Assembly (NCBI GenBank): GCA_002899765.1
Contig: PPDH01000003.1
Span: 1 to 64,000 of the forward strand
DNA from: Sulfurimonas sp.
Lineage (GTDB): Bacteria > Campylobacterota > Campylobacteria > Campylobacterales > Sulfurimonadaceae
Direction of reading: 5' to 3'
Length of the DNA stretch: 64,000 nucleotides
Shown: positions 11,986 to 59,585 of the stretch, one piece after another
How positions within the stretch are numbered: the first letter of the stretch is position 1
Layout: the number at the start of each line of letters is the position of its first letter
The notes under the pieces: model-generated
The model's input: the letters and a program-made list of their open reading frames with translations, nothing else
The model's database searches: none
Told to the model about the DNA's origin: nothing
Program-made: the position numbers and the translations under genes

Positions 11986-12270
11986 TTACGCAATAGCTTT
12001 TAGATGTACTCCTAAGCTATGAAGTACTTTCATCACTGTTTCAAATCTAGGCTTTGAACCTGCTTGAAATGTTTTATATAGGCTTTCTCTTCCTAACCCT
12101 GTATCAGCTGCTATTTGGCTCATACCTTTAGCTTTTGCTATATTTCCTATAGCTTCAAGTAGTTCATTCATATCACCATCTTCTAATACTTGTGATAAGT
12201 ATTCAGCTATCACCTCTTTGTTATCAAGATATTGTGATATATCAAATGTTGTTAGTTTACTCATTGTCAA
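11986..12270 (-). CDS. Antitoxin of type II TA module (HigA-like, addiction-module antidote)
   Basis: 94-aa HTH protein with GRESLYKTFQAGSKPRFETVMKVLHSLGVHLKA; overlaps toxin CDS. Confidence 0.82.
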   Translation of the reverse strand: MTMSKLTTFDISQYLDNKEVIAEYLSQVLEDGDMNELLEAIGNIAKAKGMSQIAADTGLGRESLYKTFQAGSKPRFETVMKVLHSLGVHLKAIA

Positions 12271-12556
12271 ACTCCTTTAGTAGCTCTTTTGCTTTTTCTA
12301 TATCTTTTGATTGGGTTGATTTATCCCCACCGACTAATAAAACAATAATCTCATCACCATTTTGTGTATAATAGACTCTATATCCCGGACCTGTTGTAAA
12401 TCTAAGCTCACTTATTCCATCACCAAGTGGCTTATAATCTCCAAAGTTTCCTTTTTTCATACGGTCAATTCTTCGTATTATAGAAACCTTACCTTGTATG
12501 TCTTTTAGCTTGTGTAACCACTTAGAAAATAGTTCTGTTTGTTTTATTAAATACAT
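12257..12556 (-). CDS. Toxin of type II TA module (RelE/HigB-like)
   Basis: MYLIKQTELFSKWLHKLKD...LRFTTGPGYRVYYTQNGDEIIVLLVGGDKSTQSKDIEKAKEL; start set at the internal Met of the 12592 ORF. Confidence 0.82.
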   Translation of the reverse strand: MYLIKQTELFSKWLHKLKDIQGKVSIIRRIDRMKKGNFGDYKPLGDGISELRFTTGPGYRVYYTQNGDEIIVLLVGGDKSTQSKDIEKAKELLKEFDNE

Positions 12557-12662
12557 AGGTTTATTGTATCTTATTAGATACTTTGCTGTCAAGAGACATA
12601 AGATAGAGAAATAGATAATATTTGCAAGAATTTAACGCTATGTTGATGAAAGAAAAAATTTC

Positions 12663-12830
12663 TCACATGTCAAGAAGTGAAACGATAATCACCCGTCACT
12701 GCAAGGAGTGAAACGACGCGGCAGTCTTAGATTGCCGCGGCAATCTAAAGTGACAAGAGAGATTGCTTCGTCGCAGGCTCCTCGCAATGACAGAGAAGCT
12801 TTGCTCATTGACGAGGTTGAAACCTCGCTT
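12663..12830. repeat. REP-like palindromic repeat cluster beside RAYT
   Basis: ...gtcactgcaaggagtgaaacgacgcggcagtcttagattgccgcggcaatct...gctcctcgcaatgac. Confidence 0.75.
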
Positions 12831-12836
12831 CCTAAA

Positions 12837-13580
12837 TCAAGATGTTATTTTTGAAACTGCAGTATGGCTTATGTTTAAAAAATCAGCTATCTCACTTTTT
12901 GTATATCCGTACTCATAGGCTTTTTTGATACCGTCATTTCTGTTGATATCCCTGTCAAACTCAAAAAAAGTCTCTAGTCTTTTACTCAGTACCTTTAGCT
13001 TACCGTCCTTTGTTATAAGCTTGGGTGATTTGTAAACTATATCTATAGCATCAGTATCCATATCGCTACTTATATAGTCTGCATATTCATCATAAGTCAT
13101 ATCAAAAATCATTGAATTTTCCAAAAGAGAAAAATAATCATGTTTATATTTCCATTGAAAAAAGGACTGGTATTTGTAGAGCGCTACATCTTTTACCATA
13201 GCTGCTTTTACGGGATTGCGCTCTATGTACTTTGCAACTATCCAGAAGTGTGCATCGTCAAACAGAGGGTAAGACTTGTATCTGCCTTGCCATAAATGAC
13301 CGCTTCTAGTGTACTTTTTGTTAAAATACTTGGAATATTTATCGTTAATAAACTGAATCGCTTTTGAAAGGTTGGTCTGTTTTGTTTCTACAAGTAGATG
13401 ATAGTGATTTGTCATAAGACAAAATACATGTATAATTATTTCGTACTCTTTTGTAAGCTTGAACAGTAAATCTAAAAAGAACTTATAATCCTCAGGTTCT
13501 AAGTAGATATCTCGTCTCTCTACCCCACGATTGATAATATGATAGTGTCCGGGTTCTTGGTAGCGTTCTTTTCTTGGCAT
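12837..13580 (-). mobile_element. REP-associated tyrosine transposase (RAYT, Y1/HUH, Transposase_17), apparently intact
   Basis: MPRKERYQEPGHYHIINRGVERRDIYL...CLMTNHYHLLVETKQTNLSKAIQFINDKYSKYFNKKYTRSGHLWQGRYKS; H-x-H (HYH) motif present; start placed at MPRKE (13580). Confidence 0.88.
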
Positions 13581-13730
13581 GTAGTATTGTAATAAACAAT
13601 ATCTTAATATTAAATTAATAAAAGTTTCAAAAGAGTGCCTGACACCCTTTTTTGATTTTAGAGTGATGGGTAGAGAGAGTGATTTGAGGGTGAAATGGAT
13701 GGTTTGGTCGGCTGGAATAGAGAGTAGAAA

Positions 13731-13769
13731 TAAAAAAGCCCCACTTACTCCGAAGAGTTTGTGAGGCTT
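13731..13769 (-). terminator. Rho-independent terminator after the 1304-aa gene
   Basis: On the - strand AAGCCTCACAAACTC-TTCG-GAGTAAGTGGGGCTTTTTTA: UUCG-loop hairpin plus T run. Confidence 0.82.
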
Positions 13770-13823
13770 GAAAGCTTTTGGGCTTTTATGCATTACCACG
13801 CAGAGCGTGGGAACGAGAAATAA

Positions 13824-17959: not shown

Positions 17960-18395
17960 TGCAGTGTTGGATTGCCGCGCTTCGCTCGCAATGACGGAGA
18001 AGCTTCGCTCGCAATGACGGAGAGGGTTTGCTTTAGAATAGATTGCCGCGCTTTTAGATTGCCGCGTCGGCTTCGCCTCCTCGCAATGACGGAGGGGGTG
18101 AGATTGCCGCGTCGGCTTTGCCTCCTCGCAATGACAGGAAAGCTTTGCTCGCAATGACGAAAGGCAGTCACTGCGAGGAACGGAGTGACGTGGCAGTCTG
18201 GAGTGGCGAGAGAGATTGCCGCGCTTCGCTCGCAATGACGGGGTGGCTTTGCTTGCAATGACGAAAGGTAGTCACTGCGAGGAACGGAGTGACGTGGCAG
18301 TCTGGAGTGGCGAGAGAGAGATTGCCGCGCTTCGCTCGCAATGACGGGAAAGCTTTGCTCGCAATGACGGGGTGGCTTCACTCGCAATGACGTGA
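17960..18395. repeat. Dense REP-like repeat array (about 430 bp)
   Basis: Many copies of agattgccgcgcttcgctcgcaatgacgg, attgccgcgtcggcttcgcctcctcgcaatgacgg and gtcactgcgaggaacggagtgacgtggcagtctggagtggcgagagagattgccgcg. Confidence 0.92.
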
Positions 18396-18405
18396 CGGGG
18401 TGGGA

Positions 18406-18816
18406 TTAATTAAAATTTTTTTTTATATTTATGTCTAATATAGTGCAAACTTGATTGAAGATATTTTTAGCAAATATATAAAATTCATTTGCGTCTTTAA
18501 GTGTTGGTTTTCCATGGGGGAGAAGTCCCATTTCCGTTGGGTAACGAGATTCGATATAGAGTTCATCAAGAATGCTTAGAGTATCATCATTTACTTCAGT
18601 TAGAGTTGTCGGAAGCATTCTATGTAGTTTCAATAACTTATGGATTTTTGGCGTGTCTATCTCTTTTTCTTCTAAAATAGCTTTGAAACTTTTTTCTATA
18701 CATTGTTGAGCATGAAAGGCGGCAATATTGGTTAAATGTTGATTGTTTATGATTTCTTCTATAGTTAAGAGGTCATCATATGCCGCTTTTAGCCACTCTT
18801 TTGTAAAAGCTCTCAT
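18406..18816 (-). CDS. HEPN-domain protein (MNT-HEPN TA pair)
   Basis: KEWLKAAYDDLLTIEEII...AAFHAQQCIEKSFKAILEEKEIDTPKIHKLLKL; 4-nt overlap with the upstream MNT CDS. Confidence 0.82.
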   Translation of the reverse strand: MRAFTKEWLKAAYDDLLTIEEIINNQHLTNIAAFHAQQCIEKSFKAILEEKEIDTPKIHKLLKLHRMLPTTLTEVNDDTLSILDELYIESRYPTEMGLLPHGKPTLKDANEFYIFAKNIFNQVCTILDINIKKNFN

Positions 18817-19145
18817 AACAAAGAGATGCCGTCTTTGAGTATTTTTCTGCTAAACATGCTATCCATCTCTATAAATTTAGAGTGCATTGCTTTTGTATGT
18901 GTAATCAAATCCGTGGGAATATCAATCATCAAATCTTTTAATGCTCTTGCAATTTTTAAATGTAGTTGGCTTTTTTCTTTAAAACTTTGAGGTATAAACT
19001 CGTCTTTTGTAACTACATATAAGTCGATATCGCTGTTTTGGGTAGGAGTGCCGTAAGCATAAGAGCCGAACAATATAATTTTTTCAGGGTCAAGAGGTTT
19101 TAAGCGTTCTACTATTTGATGCTTTAAGTCTTCTATATTTATCAT
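18813..19145 (-). CDS. MNT-type nucleotidyltransferase (MNT-HEPN TA pair)
   Basis: MINIEDLKHQIVERLKPLDPEKIILFGSYAYGTPTQNSDIDLYVV: GSxxxGxxxxxSDxDL motif; start reset from 19262 because the upstream part is REP-derived. Confidence 0.85.
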   Translation of the reverse strand: MINIEDLKHQIVERLKPLDPEKIILFGSYAYGTPTQNSDIDLYVVTKDEFIPQSFKEKSQLHLKIARALKDLMIDIPTDLITHTKAMHSKFIEMDSMFSRKILKDGISLL

Positions 19146-19194
19146 CTTGTACTCCTTTTGTTCGTTTGAAATTATACTATAGTTTTTGGATTTT

Positions 19195-19345
19195 AGATTG
19201 CCGCGCTTGTCATTGCGAGGCTTTGGCCGTGGCAATCTCAATGACGGGAGAGGGCTTGTCATTGCGAGGCTTTAGCCGTGGCAATCTCAATGACGGGAGA
19301 GGGCTTGTCATTGCGAGCGAAGCGCTGCAATCTCAATGACGAGGT
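19195..19345. repeat. REP-like repeat cluster
   Basis: Tandem gtcattgcgaggctttagccgtggcaatctcaatgacgggagagggctt units. Confidence 0.9.
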
Positions 19346-19950: not shown

Positions 19951-20132
19951 TAGATTGCCGCGTCGGCTTTGCCTCCTCGCAATGACGGAGGGGGTGAGAT
20001 TGCCGCGCTTCGCTCGCAATGACGGGAAAGCTTCGCTCGCAATGACGGAGGGCGGTCATTGCGAGGCTTTAGCCGCGGCAATCTCAATGACGGACGGGGA
20101 GATTGCCGCGTCTTCCACTCCTCGCAATGACT
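19951..20132. repeat. REP-like repeat cluster upstream of the DUF4214-M10 protease gene
   Basis: agattgccgcgtcggctttgcctcctcgcaatgacgg, attgccgcgcttcgctcgcaatgacggg, gtcattgcgaggctttagccgcggcaatctc. Confidence 0.9.
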
Positions 20133-20174: not shown

Positions 20175-22055
20175 GTGGTTAGTGAACTTGAAGTTACCAG
20201 AGTGTATGTAGCTACGTTTAATCGTGCTCCTGATGCGGCGGGGCTTGCTTACTGGGTTAATGACTCTTTTGAGGGCAATGCTGCGATTGAGCAGATTGCG
20301 CAGAGTTTTTTTGATAGTGCGGAGGCGCAGAGTATTTACGTACCTAGTTTGAGTGTTGCTCAGAGGGTCTCTTTGGCATATCTTAACCTTTTTGGCAGAG
20401 AAGCTGACGCGGAAGGGCTTGCTTACTGGGTAGATGAGATAGATAATGGACGTGTCTCTCAAAGCAGCATGATACTCGCACTTGTAAACGGTGCGCAAGA
20501 CAGCGTATATGGAATGGATGCAACTACGCTTGCTAACAAAAGTGAAGTGGGGCTTTACTATGCGCAAAGCTCTCTTGATGATGTTGCGGCTGCTTATGAG
20601 GTGATGGAGGGGGTTACATCGCTGCAGAGTAGTGTGAGTGAGGCTAAGGCGGTAGTAGATTGCCGCGCTTCGCTCGCAATGACGGAAGAGGCTTCGCTCA
20701 CAATGACGGAGGACAGTCATTGCGAGGCTTTAGCCGCGGCAATCTCAATAACGGAAGAGGCGCAAAACAGAAGCGTGACAATAGATGATGTTTTTACTTA
20801 TGATGCTGCTGAAGTTGACGAGTATATAGATGCACTTTATTCATTAAGCAGTTGGAGTAGTTCAGTTGTGACTTACAGCTTTAACGATACTATCCCCTCC
20901 TCTTACTACAGTTTTTACGATAATAGTTTGACATACGGATGGAGCGCACTTAACACTCTGCAAAGAGAAGCGGTTAGAGATGTATTTGAAATGCTTGAGA
21001 CAATCGTGGATGTAGAGTTTGTAGAGGTAGAGAGCGGCGGTGATATGCAGTACAACATCACCTATCAAGAGGCAAGTTCCGGGTTTGCTTTTTACCCAGG
21101 CGGCAGTGAGTTCATGGGCGACGTTTTTTTAGGAAGCGTGTTTAACACAAACCCTCAAGAGTACGGTGTAGCCGTAGGTGAGTACGGCTGGAGCACTATA
21201 GTACATGAGACGGGGCATGCGCTAGGACTTAAGCACCCTTTTGAGGGTTACTACACGCTTGATGATGAGCTTGACAATTTTGCGCACAGTGTCATGTCTT
21301 ACGATACGGGAATGACACTTCTGGCATTGACTTATATAGAAGGTCTGGAATTTGGAGTGAGCTTTGAGTGGGTAAATCCTGAGTCTTACTCCGTTTATGA
21401 TATTTTGACACTACAAGAGATTTACGGCGCAAGTCTTAATAGCAGCAGTGAGGATAATATATATAGTATAGAATTTGGGGAGCTTAAGACCATCTGGGAT
21501 AGCGGCGGAGTGGATACGCTTGATTTCTCGCGAAGTGCGGGGAGTGTTTTTTTGGATATGCAAGACGGGAGCGTCAATACGGTAGGATACATAAGTATAG
21601 AGAATCAGATAGATGCTTTTGTGGAAGAGCTTGAGGATACCCGGATATTCGGACAAGAGAGCTGGGTAAGTGAGAGTTTTTACACTTATGAGACGTCGCT
21701 TTATACAGGAGAGGACAACTTCGCTATAGCCTACGGCACGGTAATAGAAAATCTTGTGAGCGGAGATTTTGATGACGTGATTTTTGATAATGAGGTAGAT
21801 AATATAATCCTTCTTGGCAAAGGTAATGACAAAGTTTATCTTTATGGCGGCTGGGATTATGTAGACGGTGCAGACGGCTATGACACGGTTTACTTTGATG
21901 CGCTGCTTTATGATGTAGAGTTTGAGAAAATCTCCGCAGATGAGTATCTTTTTGTAGGAGATAACTTTGCAGCGACGCTTGTGGGAGTAGAGAGCGTTGT
22001 TTTTAGTGACGGGGTTGTTAAAGAGATAGGATACTTTGATCAGACCTTTGTGTAG
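20175..22055 (+). CDS. DUF4214 + M10 (serralysin-like) zinc metalloprotease, putative type I secretion substrate
   Basis: DUF4214 repeats VYVATFNRAPDAAGLAYWV and LAYLNLFGREADAEGLAYWV; HETGHALGLKHPF (HExxHxxGxxH) with Met-turn HSVMSYDTG; degenerate RTX-like C-terminus. Confidence 0.88.
   Translation: MVSELEVTRVYVATFNRAPDAAGLAYWVNDSFEGNAAIEQIAQSFFDSAEAQSIYVPSLSVAQRVSLAYLNLFGREADAEGLAYWVDEIDNGRVSQSSMILALVNGAQDSVYGMDATTLANKSEVGLYYAQSSLDDVAAAYEVMEGVTSLQSSVSEAKAVVDCRASLAMTEEASLTMTEDSHCEALAAAISITEEAQNRSVTIDDVFTYDAAEVDEYIDALYSLSSWSSSVVTYSFNDTIPSSYYSFYDNSLTYGWSALNTLQREAVRDVFEMLETIVDVEFVEVESGGDMQYNITYQEASSGFAFYPGGSEFMGDVFLGSVFNTNPQEYGVAVGEYGWSTIVHETGHALGLKHPFEGYYTLDDELDNFAHSVMSYDTGMTLLALTYIEGLEFGVSFEWVNPESYSVYDILTLQEIYGASLNSSSEDNIYSIEFGELKTIWDSGGVDTLDFSRSAGSVFLDMQDGSVNTVGYISIENQIDAFVEELEDTRIFGQESWVSESFYTYETSLYTGEDNFAIAYGTVIENLVSGDFDDVIFDNEVDNIILLGKGNDKVYLYGGWDYVDGADGYDTVYFDALLYDVEFEKISADEYLFVGDNFAATLVGVESVVFSDGVVKEIGYFDQTFV
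20658..20756. repeat. REP-like repeat inserted in frame inside the protease CDS (about 99 bp)
   Basis: agattgccgcgcttcgctcgcaatgacggaagaggcttcgctcacaatgacggaggacagtcattgcgaggctttagccgcggcaatctcaataacgg, encoding DCRASLAMTEEASLTMTEDSHCEALAAAISITEE. Confidence 0.92.
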
Positions 22056-22072: not shown

Positions 22073-22272
22073 GATTGCCGCGCTTCGCTCGCAATGACGG
22101 AAAAGGTTCGCTTGCAATGACGGAGTGGCTTGTCATTGCGAGGCTTTAGCCGTGGCAATCTCAATGACGGATGTGTCATTGCGAGGAACGGAGTGACGCG
22201 GCAGTCTGGAGTGGCAAGAGATTGCCGCGCTTCGCTCGCAATGACTAAAGGGCAGTCTGAGATGGCAAGCGG
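22073..22272. repeat. REP-like repeat cluster
   Basis: agattgccgcgcttcgctcgcaatgacgg...gtcattgcgaggctttagccgtggcaatctc...gtcattgcgaggaacggagtgacgcggcagtctggagtggcaagagattgccgcgcttcgctcgcaatgac. Confidence 0.9.
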
Positions 22273-22593: not shown

Positions 22594-22662
22594 TAGATTG
22601 CCGCGCTTCGCTCGCAATGACGGAAAGGGTGAGATTGCCGCGCTTCGCTCGCAATGACATGG
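22594..22662. repeat. REP-like repeats (two copies)
   Basis: agattgccgcgcttcgctcgcaatgacggaaagggtgagattgccgcgcttcgctcgcaatgac. Confidence 0.9.
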
Positions 22663-22774: not shown

Positions 22775-23456
22775 TTGGCGCGAAAAGTTAGGATTTTTGT
22801 TAAAGACTCTTCACAACATGTGATACTAAAGAGTTTGGATAAACTTGCTATTTTTCAAGACGAATCAGACTACATGGCGTTTGCGGACATCTTGCGGGAG
22901 TCTAGTTCAAACAGCGCTCTGGCTGTTCATGCTTATGTTTTGATGCCGCACTTTTTTGAATTTTTGGCTACGCCTTCAAATGAAGATGCTTTGTCAAAGT
23001 TTATGCAGAGTCTGGGCAGAAAATATGTCGGCTACTTTAACAAAAAGTACAATCGCGTAGGAACTATTTTCGAGGGCAGATATAAATCTTCTCTTGTATA
23101 GGATGAGAGATATCTTTTTGACGTGATGCGCTACATAGAGAAACTTGCGCCAAAAGGACATCCCTTTAGCAGCATTCATAAAAATCTCTACGGCAAAAAA
23201 GATGAAATCGTCTCTTATCATGATTTGTACAAAAAGCTTGGATTTACAGACGAGCAGAGGGTAGAAAAATATGGTGAGTTATTTAACTCTGATGCAGATA
23301 ATGCCAAAGAGAGTTTTATAAAAAGATGTTTAGAAAAACAGAGTGTGACGGGCAGCGAGGATTTTGTAAAAAATCTTGAAAAAATTGTGGGAATTTCTCT
23401 AACTCTAAAAGAGAGAGGACGACCTAAAAAAGAAGATAAAGAAAAAGGAAAAAAAA
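22775..23456 (+). pseudogene. RAYT-related (Transposase_17-like) protein with lost HUH motif, interrupted by TAG (23099-23101); frame continues into sapC
   Basis: MARKVRIFVKDSSQHVILKSL...HAYVLMPHFFEFLATPSNEDALSKFMQSLGRKYVGYFNKKYNRVGTIFEGRYKSSLV*DERYLFDVMRYIEKLAPKGHP...GSEDFVKNLEKIVGISLTLKERGRPKK. Confidence 0.8.
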
Positions 23457-24160
23457 TGTATAAAAATTTAGTAATATTGGACAAAGAGAAACACAAAGAG
23501 CTTAAGATAAGCCCTTTAGAGGACCTTAACTTTGCAAAGAGCGCGGCGTATATCCCTATTTTGGCAAATGAAGTAGCACAAGTCGGTGCGGCGTTTCCAG
23601 TGGTGTTTACGGCAGGAGAGACTCCTGAGATAATGGCAATCGTATCTTTGGGAGCTGAGAGTCTGGCAATCCGTGAAGATGGAAAGTGGATAACTTCTTA
23701 TGTTCCTTCATACTTAAGAAAATACCCTTTTTCTTTGGCAAGCACGAAAGAAAATCCTAACCAAAAAGTTATTATTATAGATGAAGACTCATCTCTTTTT
23801 TCAAAATCAAAAGGCAGACAGCTTTTTAAAAAAGACGGTGAAAAATCAGAAACCCTAGAGCATGCCATAAATTTCTTAACATCACATGACAAGCAAATGA
23901 GTGTTACTTTAAATGTTGCAAAACTAATCGCACAAAGCGGAATCCTTGAAGAGAGAGAGATATCCGTGGGCGAAGGTGAAGAGAAAAAAGTGTTGGTTAA
24001 CGGGTTTAAAGTAGTTAACAAAGAAAAGCTTAATGCACTAAGTGATGATATCTTAGCCGACTGGGTAAGAAAGGGAATCATGACTATGATAGATGCGCAT
24101 CTGAAATCATTGGAAAATATTCAGACTCTTTTTGAGATAGCGCAAAAAAGACAGAGCTGA
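23457..24160 (+). CDS. sapC: SapC-family protein
   Basis: MYKNLVILDKEKHKELKISPLEDLNFAKSAAYIPILANEVAQVGAAFPVVFTAG...; RBS aaaaagga before ATG 23457; no stop separates it from the upstream RAYT-like frame. Confidence 0.82.
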
Positions 24161-24163
24161 TTC

Positions 24164-24375
24164 GCAATGACGAAAATAGTCACTGTGAGGAACGGAGTGA
24201 CGCGGCAGTCTGAAGTGGCAAGAGATTGCCGCGCTTCGCTCGCAATGACGGATATGTCACTGCGAGGAGTGAAACGACGCGGCAGTCTGGAGTGACAAGA
24301 GATTGCCGCGCTTCGCTCGCAATGACGGGGAATGCTTTGCCTCCTCGCAATGACAGAAAACGTCGCAATGACAAT
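24164..24375. repeat. REP-like repeat cluster between sapC and the T1SS ABC gene
   Basis: gtcactgtgaggaacggagtgacgcggcagtctgaagtggcaagagattgccgcgcttcgctcgcaatgacgg and further copies. Confidence 0.9.
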
Positions 24376-42568: not shown

Positions 42569-42605
42569 CATCGTCATTGCGAGCGCAGCGCGGCAATCTC
42601 TTGTA
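42569..42605. repeat. REP-like repeat (single copy)
   Basis: cgtcattgcgagcgcagcgcggcaatctcttg. Confidence 0.85.
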
Positions 42606-45605: not shown

Positions 45606-45740
45606 GTGATTAATCCATGTTTTATATATTTAGAAATTATTATATCATATGATAAGATAAAGAAAAATTCATCCTTATCAAATTAAGAAAAAAATTATCT
45701 TAAAGAACATAGTTTGACACTTTTTTTCTTCGTCATTAAG

Positions 45741-45868
45741 ATTGCCGCGCTACGCTCGCAATGACGGGGGGGGGAGAGATTACCGCGCTTGTCATTGCAA
45801 GCGCAACCCCTGTGTCATTGCAAGCGCAGCCCCTTGTCATTGCGAGGCTTTAGCCGTGGCAATCTCCC
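45741..45868. repeat. REP-like repeat cluster, overlapping the 3' end of 45837-46817
   Basis: agattgccgcgctacgctcgcaatgacgggggggggagag...gtcattgcgaggctttagccgtggcaatctc. Confidence 0.88.
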
Positions 45869-46837: not shown

Positions 46838-47012
46838 CATTGAGATTGCCGCGGCTAAAGCCTCGCAATGACATGTGAGTGTTATTGCAAGCGAAGCGTG
46901 GCAATCTCTCTCTTCAGACTGCCACGTCGTTTCACTCCTCGCAGTGACGGTCGCTTGTCATTGAGATTGCCGCGGCTAAAGCCTCGCAATGACAAGCGCG
47001 GCAATCTCAACC
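46838..47012. repeat. REP-like repeat cluster
   Basis: gtcattgagattgccgcggctaaagcctcgcaatgacatgtgag...gactgccacgtcgtttcactcctcgcagtgacgg. Confidence 0.9.
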
Positions 47013-47018
47013 CTCTCC

Positions 47019-48422
47019 CTAAAAATTAAAGTACACAAAAGTAGCGGCAGGCGTACTTGCGAGCATCTTTAGACTCACAAAGAGCAAAATCCCCACCAAA
47101 ATCCCATGCCAATTTTTTACTTTCACACCGCCTTCTCTCATATGTAAAACTTCGGAAGCATTTGGCAGAAACCAGACCAAAAAAAGACCGCTCGCAAGAA
47201 AAAATGCTTCTTTTGCACTTACTTCAAACGCGTTAAAACTAAAGAGTATTTTATAAAGTCTAAGCGCTTCACCTATATCTGCACTAAAAAAGAGCACCCA
47301 AAGAAGCGTAACATACAAAAACGTCATAAAAACCGCTAAAACTTTAGGCAATTTTATGCCGCTGATATGCACCATGACAAGCCCTATGCCATGCATTACC
47401 CCCCAAAGCAAAAAGTTCCATCCTGCACCATGCCAGATACCCCCGACAACCATCGTTGCCAAGAGTGCAAACATCTGTACACCATAACCGCTTCGAGAAC
47501 CTCCAAGCGGTATATAGATATGTTCTTTTAAAAACGCGCCCAGCGTCATGTGCCATCTTCTCCAAAACTCTATAATATTGCGGGCTTTGTAAGGTGAGTA
47601 AAAATTGAGCGGCAGCATCACGCCAAACATAAGTCCAAGCCCAATTGCCATATTTGCATAGCCGCTAAAATCAAAGTAAATCATCAAACTATAACTTAAA
47701 AGATCCGCCCAATCCTCATACCGCTCCTTTACCAAGTTGTCTGCCAAAACGACTTTGCTAAACATTCCCATACTAAAGAGTACGATGCCTGCTTGAAACT
47801 TCTGCATGTCGAAATGCTCAAGCACTCCGCTCTTTACCTGTTGCATCATCGTATTGTAATGCACGATAGGACCTGCGATAAGCTGCGGGAAAAACATCAC
47901 AAAAAAGAGATACTCCCAAAAAGAGCCAAATGTAATCTTTTTTCTATAAACATCCACAACATAAGCGATTTGCTGGAATGTATAGAACGATATCGCAAGC
48001 GGCAAAACCATGTTGTGCTCGCTTAGATGTAAAAAGCCGCTATATTTAAAGTAGCCCAAAAGCAAGATGTTAAATCCGACAATGCCCCATAATATGCTCT
48101 TGTTGTAGACTGCCGCGTCACTTCGTTCCTCGCAGTGACTAAGTATGTCATTGAGATTGCCACGGCTAAAGCCTCGCAATGACAAGCACGGCAATCTAAG
48201 CTGAAGTAATCTCCTGTCTTTGCCGCTAAGCAGTCTAGCCCCCATGTAGTTAACACTTACAGAGACAAAAAGCAGCCCTAAATGCAGCAGATCCCACTGA
48301 GCATAAAAAACAAAAGAGGCAAGAGTAAGCAGGTACATTTTTAAAGAAGATGGAGTAAATCTATATAAAACAAGCAGAGGAATCAAAAAGTAAAAGAGAA
48401 AATCATACGAATGAAAGAGCAT
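47019..48422 (-). CDS. MBOAT-family O-acyltransferase (AlgI-like)
   Basis: MLFHSYDFLFYFLIPLLVLYRFTPSSLKMYLLTLASFVFYAQWD; FDFSGYANMAIGLGLMFGVMLPLNFYSPYKARNIIEFWRRWHMTL; GGIWHGAGWNFLLWGVMHG. Confidence 0.94.
   Translation of the reverse strand: MLFHSYDFLFYFLIPLLVLYRFTPSSLKMYLLTLASFVFYAQWDLLHLGLLFVSVSVNYMGARLLSGKDRRLLQLRLPCLSLRGFSRGNLNDILSHCEERSDAAVYNKSILWGIVGFNILLLGYFKYSGFLHLSEHNMVLPLAISFYTFQQIAYVVDVYRKKITFGSFWEYLFFVMFFPQLIAGPIVHYNTMMQQVKSGVLEHFDMQKFQAGIVLFSMGMFSKVVLADNLVKERYEDWADLLSYSLMIYFDFSGYANMAIGLGLMFGVMLPLNFYSPYKARNIIEFWRRWHMTLGAFLKEHIYIPLGGSRSGYGVQMFALLATMVVGGIWHGAGWNFLLWGVMHGIGLVMVHISGIKLPKVLAVFMTFLYVTLLWVLFFSADIGEALRLYKILFSFNAFEVSAKEAFFLASGLFLVWFLPNASEVLHMREGGVKVKNWHGILVGILLFVSLKMLASTPAATFVYFNF
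48108..48200. repeat. REP-like repeat inserted in frame inside the MBOAT CDS (about 93 bp)
   Basis: gactgccgcgtcacttcgttcctcgcagtgactaagtatgtcattgagattgccacggctaaagcctcgcaatgacaagcacggcaatctaag, encoding LPCLSLRGFSRGNLNDILSHCEERSDAAVY. Confidence 0.92.
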
Positions 48423-48474: not shown

Positions 48475-48640
48475 CAGACTGCCGTGTCGTTTCACTCCTT
48501 GGCACATGACATCTTCCGTCATTGCGAGCAAAGCCCCTCCGTCATTGCGAGGCTTTAGCCGCGGCAATCTCAATGACTGGGTGGGAGGATTGCCGCGCTT
48601 CGCTCGCAATGACAAGCGTGACAATCTCAATAACGAAGAA
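48475..48640. repeat. REP-like repeat cluster
   Basis: gactgccgtgtcgtttcactcctt...gtcattgcgaggctttagccgcggcaatctc...attgccgcgcttcgctcgcaatgac. Confidence 0.9.
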
Positions 48641-56741: not shown

Positions 56742-56962
56742 CGTCATTGAGATTGCCGCGGCTAAAGCCTCGCAATGACCGCCCTCCGTCATTGCAAGCG
56801 AAGCATGTTTGTCTGTCATTGCAAGTCAAGCATGTTTGTCTGTCATTGCGAGCGAAGCGCAGCAATCTTCCACTTACCCCTCCAGACTGCCACGTTACCA
56901 TGCTCCTCGCAGTGACAACTACCCGTCACCCGTCATTGCGAGGCTTTAGCCGCGGCAATCTA
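56742..56962. repeat. REP-like repeat cluster upstream of tmRNA
   Basis: gtcattgagattgccgcggctaaagcctcgcaatgac...gtcattgcgagcgaagcgcagcaatct...gtcattgcgaggctttagccgcggcaatct. Confidence 0.9.
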
Positions 56963-57042: not shown

Positions 57043-57418
57043 GGGGCTGACCTGGTTTCGACGGGATCAAGTAGCTTCTAATTGCATGTCGGACTGAGCA
57101 TCTCCGTTACGCGGCTCAACTTGCTTAAACGCAAACAATACAAATTACCGCCCAGCTTACGCAGTAGCATAAGTTTTAACCCCTCGCAAGAGGCGGGCTG
57201 CTTCACCTATGGACTCTAGATAAATAGGATTCGAAGTATAACCCTTATGTAGATATATTTTATGTCTGTCTCGAACATAAAAAGAACCTCAGAGACTCGT
57301 CTTGCGTAGCTTTGCAAGTTGTGTGAAGCAAGATTAAACTTAAACGACTTTACTAAACATGTAGACGTTAGGAGTAGCGTGGTTTCGGACTGGAGTTCGA
57401 TCCTCCACAGCTCCACCA
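57043..57418 (+). ncRNA. ssrA: Transfer-messenger RNA
   Basis: 5' ggggctgacctggtttcgac...; tag ORF gcaaacaatacaaattaccgcccagcttacgcagtagcataa = ANNTNYRPAYAVA* (57131-57172); 3' ggagttcgatcctccacagctccacca. Confidence 0.97.
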
Positions 57419-57470
57419 TTTTACAATCAAACACAATCCGACAACACCTTTAAACCCATATAAAGCCCTT

Positions 57471-57731
57471 CTACTTTCTCATCCCTGCCTTTTGCGACAA
57501 AACTTCAATACCGCCGAACATGTCAAACATCTCCCCAAAAACAAGCCTGCCTAGTTTATCTTTTGTGATATCAAACCCACACAGTCTTGTATAGATATCT
57601 TTTTGAATCGTTATTTGTGAGACATTAAACTCCTCCGCCAACGAAGAGATAGTAGGTCTCTCATCTTTAGCAAGCATCAAAATAATCGACAACAATCTAA
57701 AAAGAGCTTTATCGTATGATTTTTGAGACAT
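57471..57731 (-). CDS. Small HTH-domain protein
   Basis: LLSIILMLAKDERPTISSLAEEFNVSQITIQKDIYTRLCGFDI. Confidence 0.6.
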   Translation of the reverse strand: MSQKSYDKALFRLLSIILMLAKDERPTISSLAEEFNVSQITIQKDIYTRLCGFDITKDKLGRLVFGEMFDMFGGIEVLSQKAGMRK

Positions 57732-57869
57732 TGTGAAGCCTTTTTGTTAAAGTAATATACTATTTATATTAAATATTATATAGCTTTTTACTAACCATGT
57801 CAAGAAAGTTTTAGCAATTTACTATTGTATATGATAAAATAATAGTAATATGTTTAAAAAAGGACAATA

Positions 57870-58118
57870 ATGCATAAAAACATAAGTAAAGAGCAGTTTA
57901 TTGCAAGACTAAAAGATTTGGGTTTTGACAAGAAAAGATTTTCAGATTTATCAGGTGTACCATATACTACAGTAAATAATTGGGGTGTTATGAAAAACGG
58001 TAAACCTCTTCCTGTTCCTATATGGGTCTAACCATTCCTAACCTACTACGAAAAAGCGCAAAAACTTGAGTATGTCATGACCGAAATTTGTCAAAAAATC
58101 GAGGCTGTCAAAGTATAG
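57870..58118 (+). pseudogene. Small HTH repressor-like protein, interrupted by in-frame TAA (58029-58031)
   Basis: MHKNISKEQFIARLKDLGFDKKRFSDLSGVPYTTVNNWGVMKNGKPLPVPIWV*PFLTYYEKAQKLEYVMTEICQKIEAVKV*; RBS aaggac before ATG. Confidence 0.7.
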
Positions 58119-58264
58119 CTTTTACTATAACTTACTCATCTGTTTTTAGCATTTGGGTATTTTTCACTACTCTGAGCCATTTTCACCCAAATTTTCTATT
58201 TTTTTTACCAAAACGAAGCAACGCCCTCACCAAATTTCCTTATGTTTTTCAAAAAGGAACCACC

Positions 58265-59407
58265 ATGCCAAAAGCAAACATCACCAACAAGTTCGTCTCA
58301 AAAGTAACATGCGACCGAGCAAAGGCAAAAGAGGTCTATTATGATGAGAAGTTAAGCGGTTTTATCTTAGAAGTTAGAAGCACCATGACAAAAACATTCT
58401 ACTACTCTTACTCTAAAAACTCACGCCGAACCATGAGAAAGATAGGCAGCGCAGAAACACTCAGCGCCAATGAAGCGAGAAAAATCATTCTAAACCTAAA
58501 AAAAGAACAAGTCTCATGCGATGTAGCATCTATCATGGCAGAGAAATCCGACACTCTTACTTTAGTAAAATTTTTTAGAGAGTTTTATCTCCCTTATGTT
58601 CAAAAACATGTCAAAAGCCACGCTACAAATGAAAGCATCTTCATAAACCATATTCTCCCGACTTTAGGCACAATTCCTATGCAAAGCCTAAAGAAAATCG
58701 ATGTCATGAAGCTGCATTCGGATATGATTCAAAAAAAGAAGCTCAGTCCCGCTACCGCAAACAAACTGCTCATATTTCTCTCTCAAGCGTATCGTTTAGC
58801 GTATGAGTTTGAACTCTTTAAAACTCCCTACAATCCCGTAAGCGGAGTAAAACATTTTGAAGAAAACAATGAACGTCAAAGGTTTTTGAGCAAAGCCGAA
58901 ACAAAACGACTCTTAGATGCCGTGCAGATGAGCGAAAATGTACATCTTAAGTACATCATCCCCATGTTACTCCTCACGGGTGCAAGAAGAGGAGAACTTC
59001 TCAAAGCAAAATTTGAAGATTTTGACGAAGTGCAAATGCTCTGGATTATACCCACGACAAAAAACGGCAAAAAGAGGATTGTCCCTCTCACACCCGAACT
59101 CTACAAGATTTACAAGCAAATCCCTCAAGAGAGCGAGTATCTATTTACGTCCAAGGTTACAAACAAACCCTACACGACCTTTTACCGTTCATGGAACAGT
59201 GCAAGAATAAAAGCAAATCTTGCAGATGTAAGAGTTCATGACCTAAGACACACCTACGCTTCAGCACTTGTAAATGCCAAAAGAAGTCTCTATGAAGTCC
59301 AAGTTCTACTAGGACACTCCACCGCCAAAATGACACAAAGATATGCACATCTCTCAAACGAGTCTCTTCACGCTGCCGCTTCTTGCGCCGCGAGGTTGTT
59401 TAAGTAG
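58265..59407 (+). CDS. Tyrosine recombinase / phage-type integrase
   Basis: MPKANITNKFVSKVTCDRAKAKEVYYDEKLSGFILEVRST; LLTGARRGELLKAKFEDFD; VRVHDLRHTYASALVNAKRSLYEVQVLLGHSTAKMTQRYAHLS; RBS before ATG 58265. Confidence 0.94.
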   Translation: MPKANITNKFVSKVTCDRAKAKEVYYDEKLSGFILEVRSTMTKTFYYSYSKNSRRTMRKIGSAETLSANEARKIILNLKKEQVSCDVASIMAEKSDTLTLVKFFREFYLPYVQKHVKSHATNESIFINHILPTLGTIPMQSLKKIDVMKLHSDMIQKKKLSPATANKLLIFLSQAYRLAYEFELFKTPYNPVSGVKHFEENNERQRFLSKAETKRLLDAVQMSENVHLKYIIPMLLLTGARRGELLKAKFEDFDEVQMLWIIPTTKNGKKRIVPLTPELYKIYKQIPQESEYLFTSKVTNKPYTTFYRSWNSARIKANLADVRVHDLRHTYASALVNAKRSLYEVQVLLGHSTAKMTQRYAHLSNESLHAAASCAARLFK

Positions 59408-59540: not shown

Positions 59541-59585
59541 GCGAGGAACTCTCCTCCGTCATTGCGAGGAACGAAGCAATCTAAA
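59540..59585. repeat. REP-like repeat (partial/degenerate copies)
   Basis: tcattgcgaggaactctcctccgtcattgcgaggaacgaagcaatct. Confidence 0.75.

Follow-up and report, generated by a model that had tools for sequence, protein, structure and literature searches.

CGTC-tagged hairpin repeats with a paired basal stem and a variable tip in a Sulfurimonas genome and in other bacterial phyla

The repeats clustered at positions 17960–18395 belong, by their tag and by the start of their stem, to the superfamily of CGTC-tagged REP sequences. Within it they probably form a new family of non-autonomous single-strand hairpin elements, mostly arranged as inverted dimers of two unlike halves and dependent on an enzyme supplied in trans. 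They stand outside the families CGTC-1 to CGTC-4, from which they are set apart by the stem, loop and tail described for those families (Di Nocera et al. 2013, PMC3733652). New here are the division of the unit into a basal part and a free tip, the dimers of unlike halves, a signature of the tag strand, a broader range of hosts and a test of linkage.

Units in the window

The window, i.e. the whole stretch of DNA analysed, consists of bases 1–64000 of contig C10, in a genome of 2.39 Mb and 45 contigs. The array announced in the preliminary description is present in it, with seven complete units and several truncated ones; these comprise half units in which the GTCATTGCGAG side alone is kept, and a left-half stub at 18041 (Table 1). 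The pattern GTCAYTGC-N6..26-GCARTC has 121 matches in the genome and the reversed pattern has none, a frequency well beyond what chance would give. Of these 121 units 100 were located, and the class, arm and position counts given below rest on these 100. The window, with less than 3% of the genome length, contains 42 of them, instead of the about 15 sites first reported, and a more lenient unit pattern gives 44 matches there. The listed units of the window are mostly found in two blocks, at 12.7–24.4 kb and 42.6–59.6 kb.

Table 1. Repeat units and the adjoining RAYT-like gene in the window
Position	Strand	Feature
12695–12791	.	D18 (12695–12726, +) and F17 (12761–12791, -) units just downstream of the RAYT gene
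12837–13799	-	RAYT-like gene of a Y1 transposase, its true start probably near 13580
17970–18391	.	Array of the preliminary description; 7 complete and about 6 truncated units
17970–17995	-	Class A12 unit, tag-strand core GAGCGAAGCGCG
18008–18017	-	Half unit (tag arm and tip, without closing arm); others at 18148, 18252, 18358 and 18381
18057–18090	-	Class C20 unit, core GAGGAGGCGAAGCCGACGCG
18102–18135	-	Class C20 unit, core GAGGAGGCAAAGCCGACGCG
18167–18239	.	Asymmetric tail-to-tail dimer containing the former "long type": D18 (+, ACTGC arms, 18167–18198), constant spacer, A12 (-, ATTGC arms, 18214–18239)
18271–18345	.	D18/A12 dimer, second copy (18271–18302, +; 18320–18345, -)
19209–19332	+	Three direct-order units B15, B15 and A12, each followed by CTCAATGACG
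19953–20131	.	Mixed cluster: C20, A12, half unit, B15, D-frame variant
20658–20744	.	A12 (-) and B15 (+) units, in frame within ORF 20175–22055
22073–22245	.	A12, half unit, B15, then D18/A12 dimer (22175–22245)
22596–22658	-	Two direct-order A12 units
24179–24326	.	Two D18/A12 dimers in succession (24179–24249, 24256–24326)
42573–42598	+	Lone A12 unit
45740–45864	.	A12 and B15 units, separated by half units
46844–46993	-	B15, D18 and B15 units
48108–48183	-	D18 and B15 units
48541–48613	.	B15 (+) and A12 (-) units
56751–56960	.	B15, half units, A12, D18, B15
59558–59581	+	Short unit with 10-nt core

The open reading frame containing the units at 20658–20744 codes for a 626-residue DUF4214/serralysin-C-like protein, in which both units are translated in frame (CRASLAMTEEASLTMTEDSHCEALAAAISITEE). 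Composites of AGATTGCCGCGCTT and GTCATTGC, in which a half unit ending at the tip is fused to a full unit, recur in the window (19195–19230) and in two further loci (L187:1000–1040 and L207:920–964); some of them contain a perfect foldback of 13–14 bp. A cluster for type I secretion and for polysaccharide synthesis and export (24409–45371, with ABC, HlyD, OEP, GDP-mannose dehydratase, Wzm/Wzt-like and glycosyltransferase genes) has dense arrays on both sides and almost no units inside. A HEPN/nucleotidyltransferase pair of the toxin-antitoxin type (18406–19262) directly adjoins the array, and a RelE/ParE-type toxin gene is located at 12257–12592. In the region 57043–59407, the tyrosine integrase gene at 58088–59407 lies directly downstream of the tmRNA gene, a typical entry site of genomic islands.

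Anatomy of the unit and of the dimer

On the strand that carries the tag, the unit reads (C/T)GTC-ATTGC-GAG[tip hairpin]CG-(CG/TG/AA)-GCAAT-CT. Among the 44 window units GTCA is preceded by C 19 times, by T 16 times, by A seven times and by G twice, and nearly all the units end in the tail CT. The tag strand is predicted to fold into a basal helix ATTGC:GCAAT beside the unpaired (C/T)GTC tag, with an internal loop GA/(AA,TG,CG) above the helix. An optional second block, a G:C pair followed by GA/GA, gives what we call the D frame, GAGGA...GACG; units lacking it have the simple or S frame. The whole is capped by a tip stem-loop, which requires complementarity and tolerates almost any sequence, and compensated changes are present in both the basal helix and the tip.

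Classes were drawn by core length and tip. A12 has 33 copies (core GAGCGAAGCGCG), B15 has 21 (GAGGCTTTAGCCGCG), F17 has 15 (GAGGAgtttacGACGAA), D18 has 13 (GAGGAgtgaaacGACGCG), E19 has 7 (GAGCTTCTTTAGAAGCGCG) and C20 has 4 (GAGGAGGCAAAGCCGACGCG), followed by G16 with 3 copies and a few odd cores. When the 46 distinct cores are joined by single linkage at two edits or fewer, nine groups result, with a cloud of one or two base changes inside each. The cores thus form about seven discrete classes, each with a small cloud. The preliminary description had named discrete core types, to be abandoned should alignment reveal a continuous cloud of divergence; all the types it named exist, they are mixed within single arrays as it stated, and with nine linkage groups no continuous cloud is seen. 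The core types should not each be taken for a separate repeat family.

Contrary to what had been supposed, the arms are not constant; their type varies with the core class. ATTGC:GCAAT pairs are found in 83 units, ACTGC:GCAGT pairs in 15 and mispaired arms in two. In 12 of the 15 cases the ACTGC:GCAGT arms belong to D18, among whose matched-arm units ATTGC:GCAAT is absent, and the GTTTCACTC core class has these compensated arms in all 12 of its copies with matched arms (Fisher p=6e-13). The CGCGTCGTTTCACTCCTC core is found in AGACTGC/GCAGTGAC arms and never in AGATTGC/GCAATGAC arms among the 100 listed units. Likewise, the AA junction is tied to F17 (Fisher p=5e-8). Given this linkage, arms and cores are inherited together in this genome, as would suit separate subfamilies and dimers with two unlike halves. 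The free exchange of cores between constant arms that was proposed earlier is not supported here. Free diversity of cores, absent from this genome, is found elsewhere: a metagenome-assembled genome of the Oscillospiraceae (G069) has more than 20 tips on one frame. Arm-based recognition is compatible with these data; no recognising protein was found. AA junctions are present in 2 of the 42 window units versus 22 of the 58 listed units elsewhere, the window units having nearly all YG; the window thus has its own mix of subfamilies.

That a variable but self-complementary tip sits on a fixed basal frame, part of the original claim, is far more evident outside this genome. In G069, the frame GTCATTGCGAGGA...GACGTGGCAATC encloses more than 20 mutually unrelated tip stems, such as CCCC-GAA-GGGG, GTGC-GAAA-GCAC, GGGC-GAA-GCCC, CCGCC-GTAA-GGCGG and CCAGT-GCGCAC-ACTGG. 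Generally, the tip stem is 2–9 bp long and its loop mostly has 3–4 nt. A tip stem of at least 2 bp is formed by 81–100% of the distinct cores from other phyla and from the Oscillospiraceae, versus 12–15% of shuffled cores; in this genome it is formed by 53% of the distinct D-frame cores and by 100% of the simple ones. Over all these sets the shuffled values range from 5 to 15%. The 3' junction [CT]G(AA/TG/CG), which lies outside the search pattern, is present in 91% of the genome-contig cores and 87% of the viral-contig cores. When the proposed structure is applied to 30 distinct 32-nt D-frame units taken from several phyla, 99.2% of its pairs form (90.4% when shuffled) and six of the eight pairs have changes on both sides, values of which neither is reached in any of 500 shuffles; the units are mutually related, so that covariation and loop statistics overstate certainty and the pairing result is to be read as support, not as a probability.

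Whether DNA or RNA parameters are used, the tag strand forms the more stable fold of the two strands in 178 of 179 distinct units. Triloops of the tip conform to GNA in 19 of 34 and 21 of 43 distinct tip hairpins in two sets, and to the mirror sequence TNC in one of 34 and two of 43. GNA minihairpins closed by a G-C pair are exceptionally stable in DNA (PMC4686876, PMC10527192). The better folding, the GNA loops and their known stability in DNA together suggest that the tag strand is the one that works. As to its chemical nature, the fold and loop evidence in favour of DNA over RNA is suggestive, not decisive. GNNA loops fit the GNRA consensus in 10 of 11 cases in one set and in 3 of 9 in the other, and with this mixed preference they were not used to decide between DNA and RNA.

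The sequence gtcactgcgaggaacggagtgacgtggcagtctggagtggcgagagag, taken earlier for the core of a long type, is in reality no core: a whole unit with the 18-nt core class lies here in reverse, and a constant spacer follows it. This spacer, CTGGAGTGGCRAGAG, joins the reversed D18 unit tail to tail to an A12 unit, and the dimer recurs, slightly varied, at 18167, 18271, 22175, 24179 and 24256. In G069, 24 of 25 tail-to-tail dimers combine a D-frame and a simple unit (D+S), with the alternative arms almost always in the simple half; across phyla, 24 of 37 tail-to-tail dimers are D+S and only one is D+D. In view of this prevalence, the repeated element is most readily understood as two unlike hairpins in inverted order, with their tags outward. 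Head-to-head and direct neighbours are also common in this genome, making its arrays more mixed than those of most other hosts.

Distribution and gain of copies

An exact scan for GTCATTGCGAG-N4..26-GCAATC in a species collection yields at least 116 stretches. Among the matches listed are Alphaproteobacteria, Bacteroidota, Oscillospiraceae, Chloroflexota, Cyanobacteriota, Planctomycetota, Patescibacteria and others, including isolates of Bradyrhizobium, Hymenobacter, Mucilaginibacter, Chryseobacterium, Sphingopyxis, Helicobacter and Nostoc; the cross-phylum set consists in part of metagenome-assembled genomes. Fifty genomes from the scan contain 1–403 units each, the reversed control giving 0. 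Within the phylum of the window 72 of 397 genomes bear units, with 1 to 626 copies, the copy number within this one phylum thus ranging from 0 to 626. The frame is thus distributed over many phyla and in a patchy manner. Units are present in 3 of 50,697 phage records and 8 of 72,556 plasmid records, and IMG/VR contains at least 120 matching stretches. The arms were held fixed in most searches; when left free they are still paired and include ATTCC, ATCGC, ATTAC and ATTCT. Rfam contains no match for the units, and a literature search for the literal GTCATTGCGAG returned only papers without bearing on bacterial repeats.

The spacer between recA and eno (names assigned by reading the translated flanks) contains an insertion of about 110–120 bp, in which one complete F17 unit is enclosed by AT-rich inverted repeats. 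The corresponding spacers read in relatives of the same genus, the closest of them 84–88% identical on the flanks, are short and free of units, which means that unit gains are recent and lineage-specific. AT-rich inverted repeats (AATTGARYRCTCTGAWTAA) surround head-to-head E/F dimers or single units at about ten sites on other contigs; these elements measure about 125 bp and are located on contigs C4, C6, C12, C15, C27, C29 and C37. At these bounded copies, one suggestive 9-bp match was found at recA-eno (TATATTATT), from which no clean target duplication can be read; at the other sites none is evident, and none is claimed. Di Nocera et al. (PMC3733652) describe comparable palindromic settings of other REP dimers, again with no mover named.

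Relation to known repeats and possible means of movement

With the CGTC REPs the units share the unpaired CGTC/TGTC tag at one end (the superfamily tag may also be CCTC) and the A-T and T-A pairs with which the stem begins; AT.../...AT is present in 83 of the 100 units and the second pair is C:G in 15. They also share high copy number, mostly intergenic location, inverted dimers and heterodimers, patchy occurrence and the lack of a linked transposase. Families CGTC-1 to CGTC-4, as characterised by Di Nocera et al. (PMC3733652), have a stem of 8–9 bp, a loop of 4–5 nt and a CCA tail, whereas our units have a 5-bp basal helix, an internal loop, a variable tip of 2–9 bp and a CT tail, are often gathered in large clusters, and also occur in Chloroflexota, Planctomycetota, Bacillota, Cyanobacteriota and Patescibacteria. 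An arrangement of constant arms and a variable core is already known from a sibling, the Neisseria repeat dRS3, ATTCCC(N8)GGGAAT (PMC3898611). This member of CGTC-1 likewise forms clustered intergenic arrays (NIME arrays), but its arms are ATTCCC and its core is fixed at 8 nt, while the present units have ATTGC or ACTGC arms and cores of 10–20 nt with a separate tip stem. With the REPIN/RAYT system the units have in common inverted hairpin dimers, here tail to tail with a constant spacer in the window and D+S in 24 of 25 cases in G069, and a tag beside the foot of the hairpin; both are probably read as single-stranded DNA. They differ in the tag, GTAG there and (C/T)GTC here, in the different frames of the two dimer halves and probably in having no association with RAYT genes. 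Integron attC sites, with a folded single strand, constant ends and a variable central hairpin, offer an analogy only, and no membership is claimed. Since their description in 2013, CGTC repeats have stood as REP-like sequences without a mover. The two-part anatomy indicates which features a recogniser would have to read and which it could disregard, so that the question of the missing enzyme can be addressed with oligonucleotides, and the host range is widened well past the five phyla reported.

In the proposed mechanism, an enzyme for DNA processing supplied in trans would read the folded strand at its tag and basal fork, in the way TnpA-REP reads GTAG REPs. The tip would then need only to close, and so may drift or be replaced. 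Arrays such as the one at 17960–18395 would grow as units insert repeatedly and recombine locally, and half units would be left where the tip breaks or the template is switched there. The sequences show that D-frame and simple halves are joined preferentially tail to tail and that copies are gained in single lineages; an effect on host transcripts, if any, would be secondary. A wider and more tentative possibility is that one single-strand DNA processing system reads the fixed D+S basal fork and has carried the element into well over ten bacterial phyla, and that the unread tips diversify without limit, save for a stable DNA loop.

The nearest candidate for the enzyme is the RAYT of the window. 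The gene (12837–13799) adjoins the units at 12695–12791, and a RAYT-like remnant (22796–23302) adjoins those at 22596–22658, so that both Y1 domains are within about 150 bp of units; with 42 of the 100 located units, the window could be regarded as a REPtron and the centre of spread. That the RAYT or the remnant mobilises the units is nevertheless improbable. The RAYT has terminal hairpins of its own directly at the gene ends (GACGAGGTTGAAACCTCG at 12811 and CCACGCAGAGCGTGGGAACGAG at 13796), and its homologue in another genome (G036; 77%) lies in a 3.7 kb locus without units, a 12-mer search of that genome finding none. Among 80 loci that carry units, up to 8 kb in length, none has a RAYT match, and Y1_Tnp has no match in 19 of the 50 unit-bearing genomes, including ones with 403, 223 and 211 units. 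The RAYT is thus probably not the mover, and no mover was found in the 50 genomes searched for Y1_Tnp and the 80 loci searched for RAYT. This agrees with the account of Di Nocera et al. (PMC3733652), who describe CGTC REPs without a dedicated or linked transposase.

It is unlikely that the units act instead as RNA, be it in stabilising 3' ends, in termination or in processing, and are retained because of what they do to transcripts, their spread being incidental. Some weight stays with an RNA role, as the tag strand folds better than its complement with RNA parameters too. The units here are mostly intergenic, and their arrays flank a polysaccharide export cluster, as Thauera GTAG-1 repeats are reported to do (PMC3733652). 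However, opposite orientations are adjacent in the arrays, units are also found within an open reading frame, their presence is patchy among close relatives, with unit-free recA-eno spacers, and the commonest loop is the GNA triloop, no hallmark of stable RNA hairpins. It is also quite unlikely that the units are the cargo or target of conventional elements, be it a MITE bounded by terminal inverted repeats, a phage or an IS110-type integrase. The AT-rich inverted repeats around some ten dimers or single units on other contigs would suit such an origin, as would the precedent of dRS3, a CGTC-1 repeat that is the integration target of phage Nf1 (PMC3898611). But the arrays of the window have no flanking inverted repeats of that kind, the similar REP dimer settings are described in PMC3733652 without a mover, and phage and plasmid records seldom contain units. 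We prefer the hairpin element served by an enzyme in trans.

By sequence, the RAYT has no relative among solved structures. At 22796–24160 a Y1 domain of RAYT type and a SapC domain share one reading frame as a fusion, the frame being interrupted by one TAG, and the same fusion is an intact open reading frame of 461 amino acids in G036 (L225:2222–3607). The HUH motif of the fusion looks degenerate, suggesting a domesticated domain.
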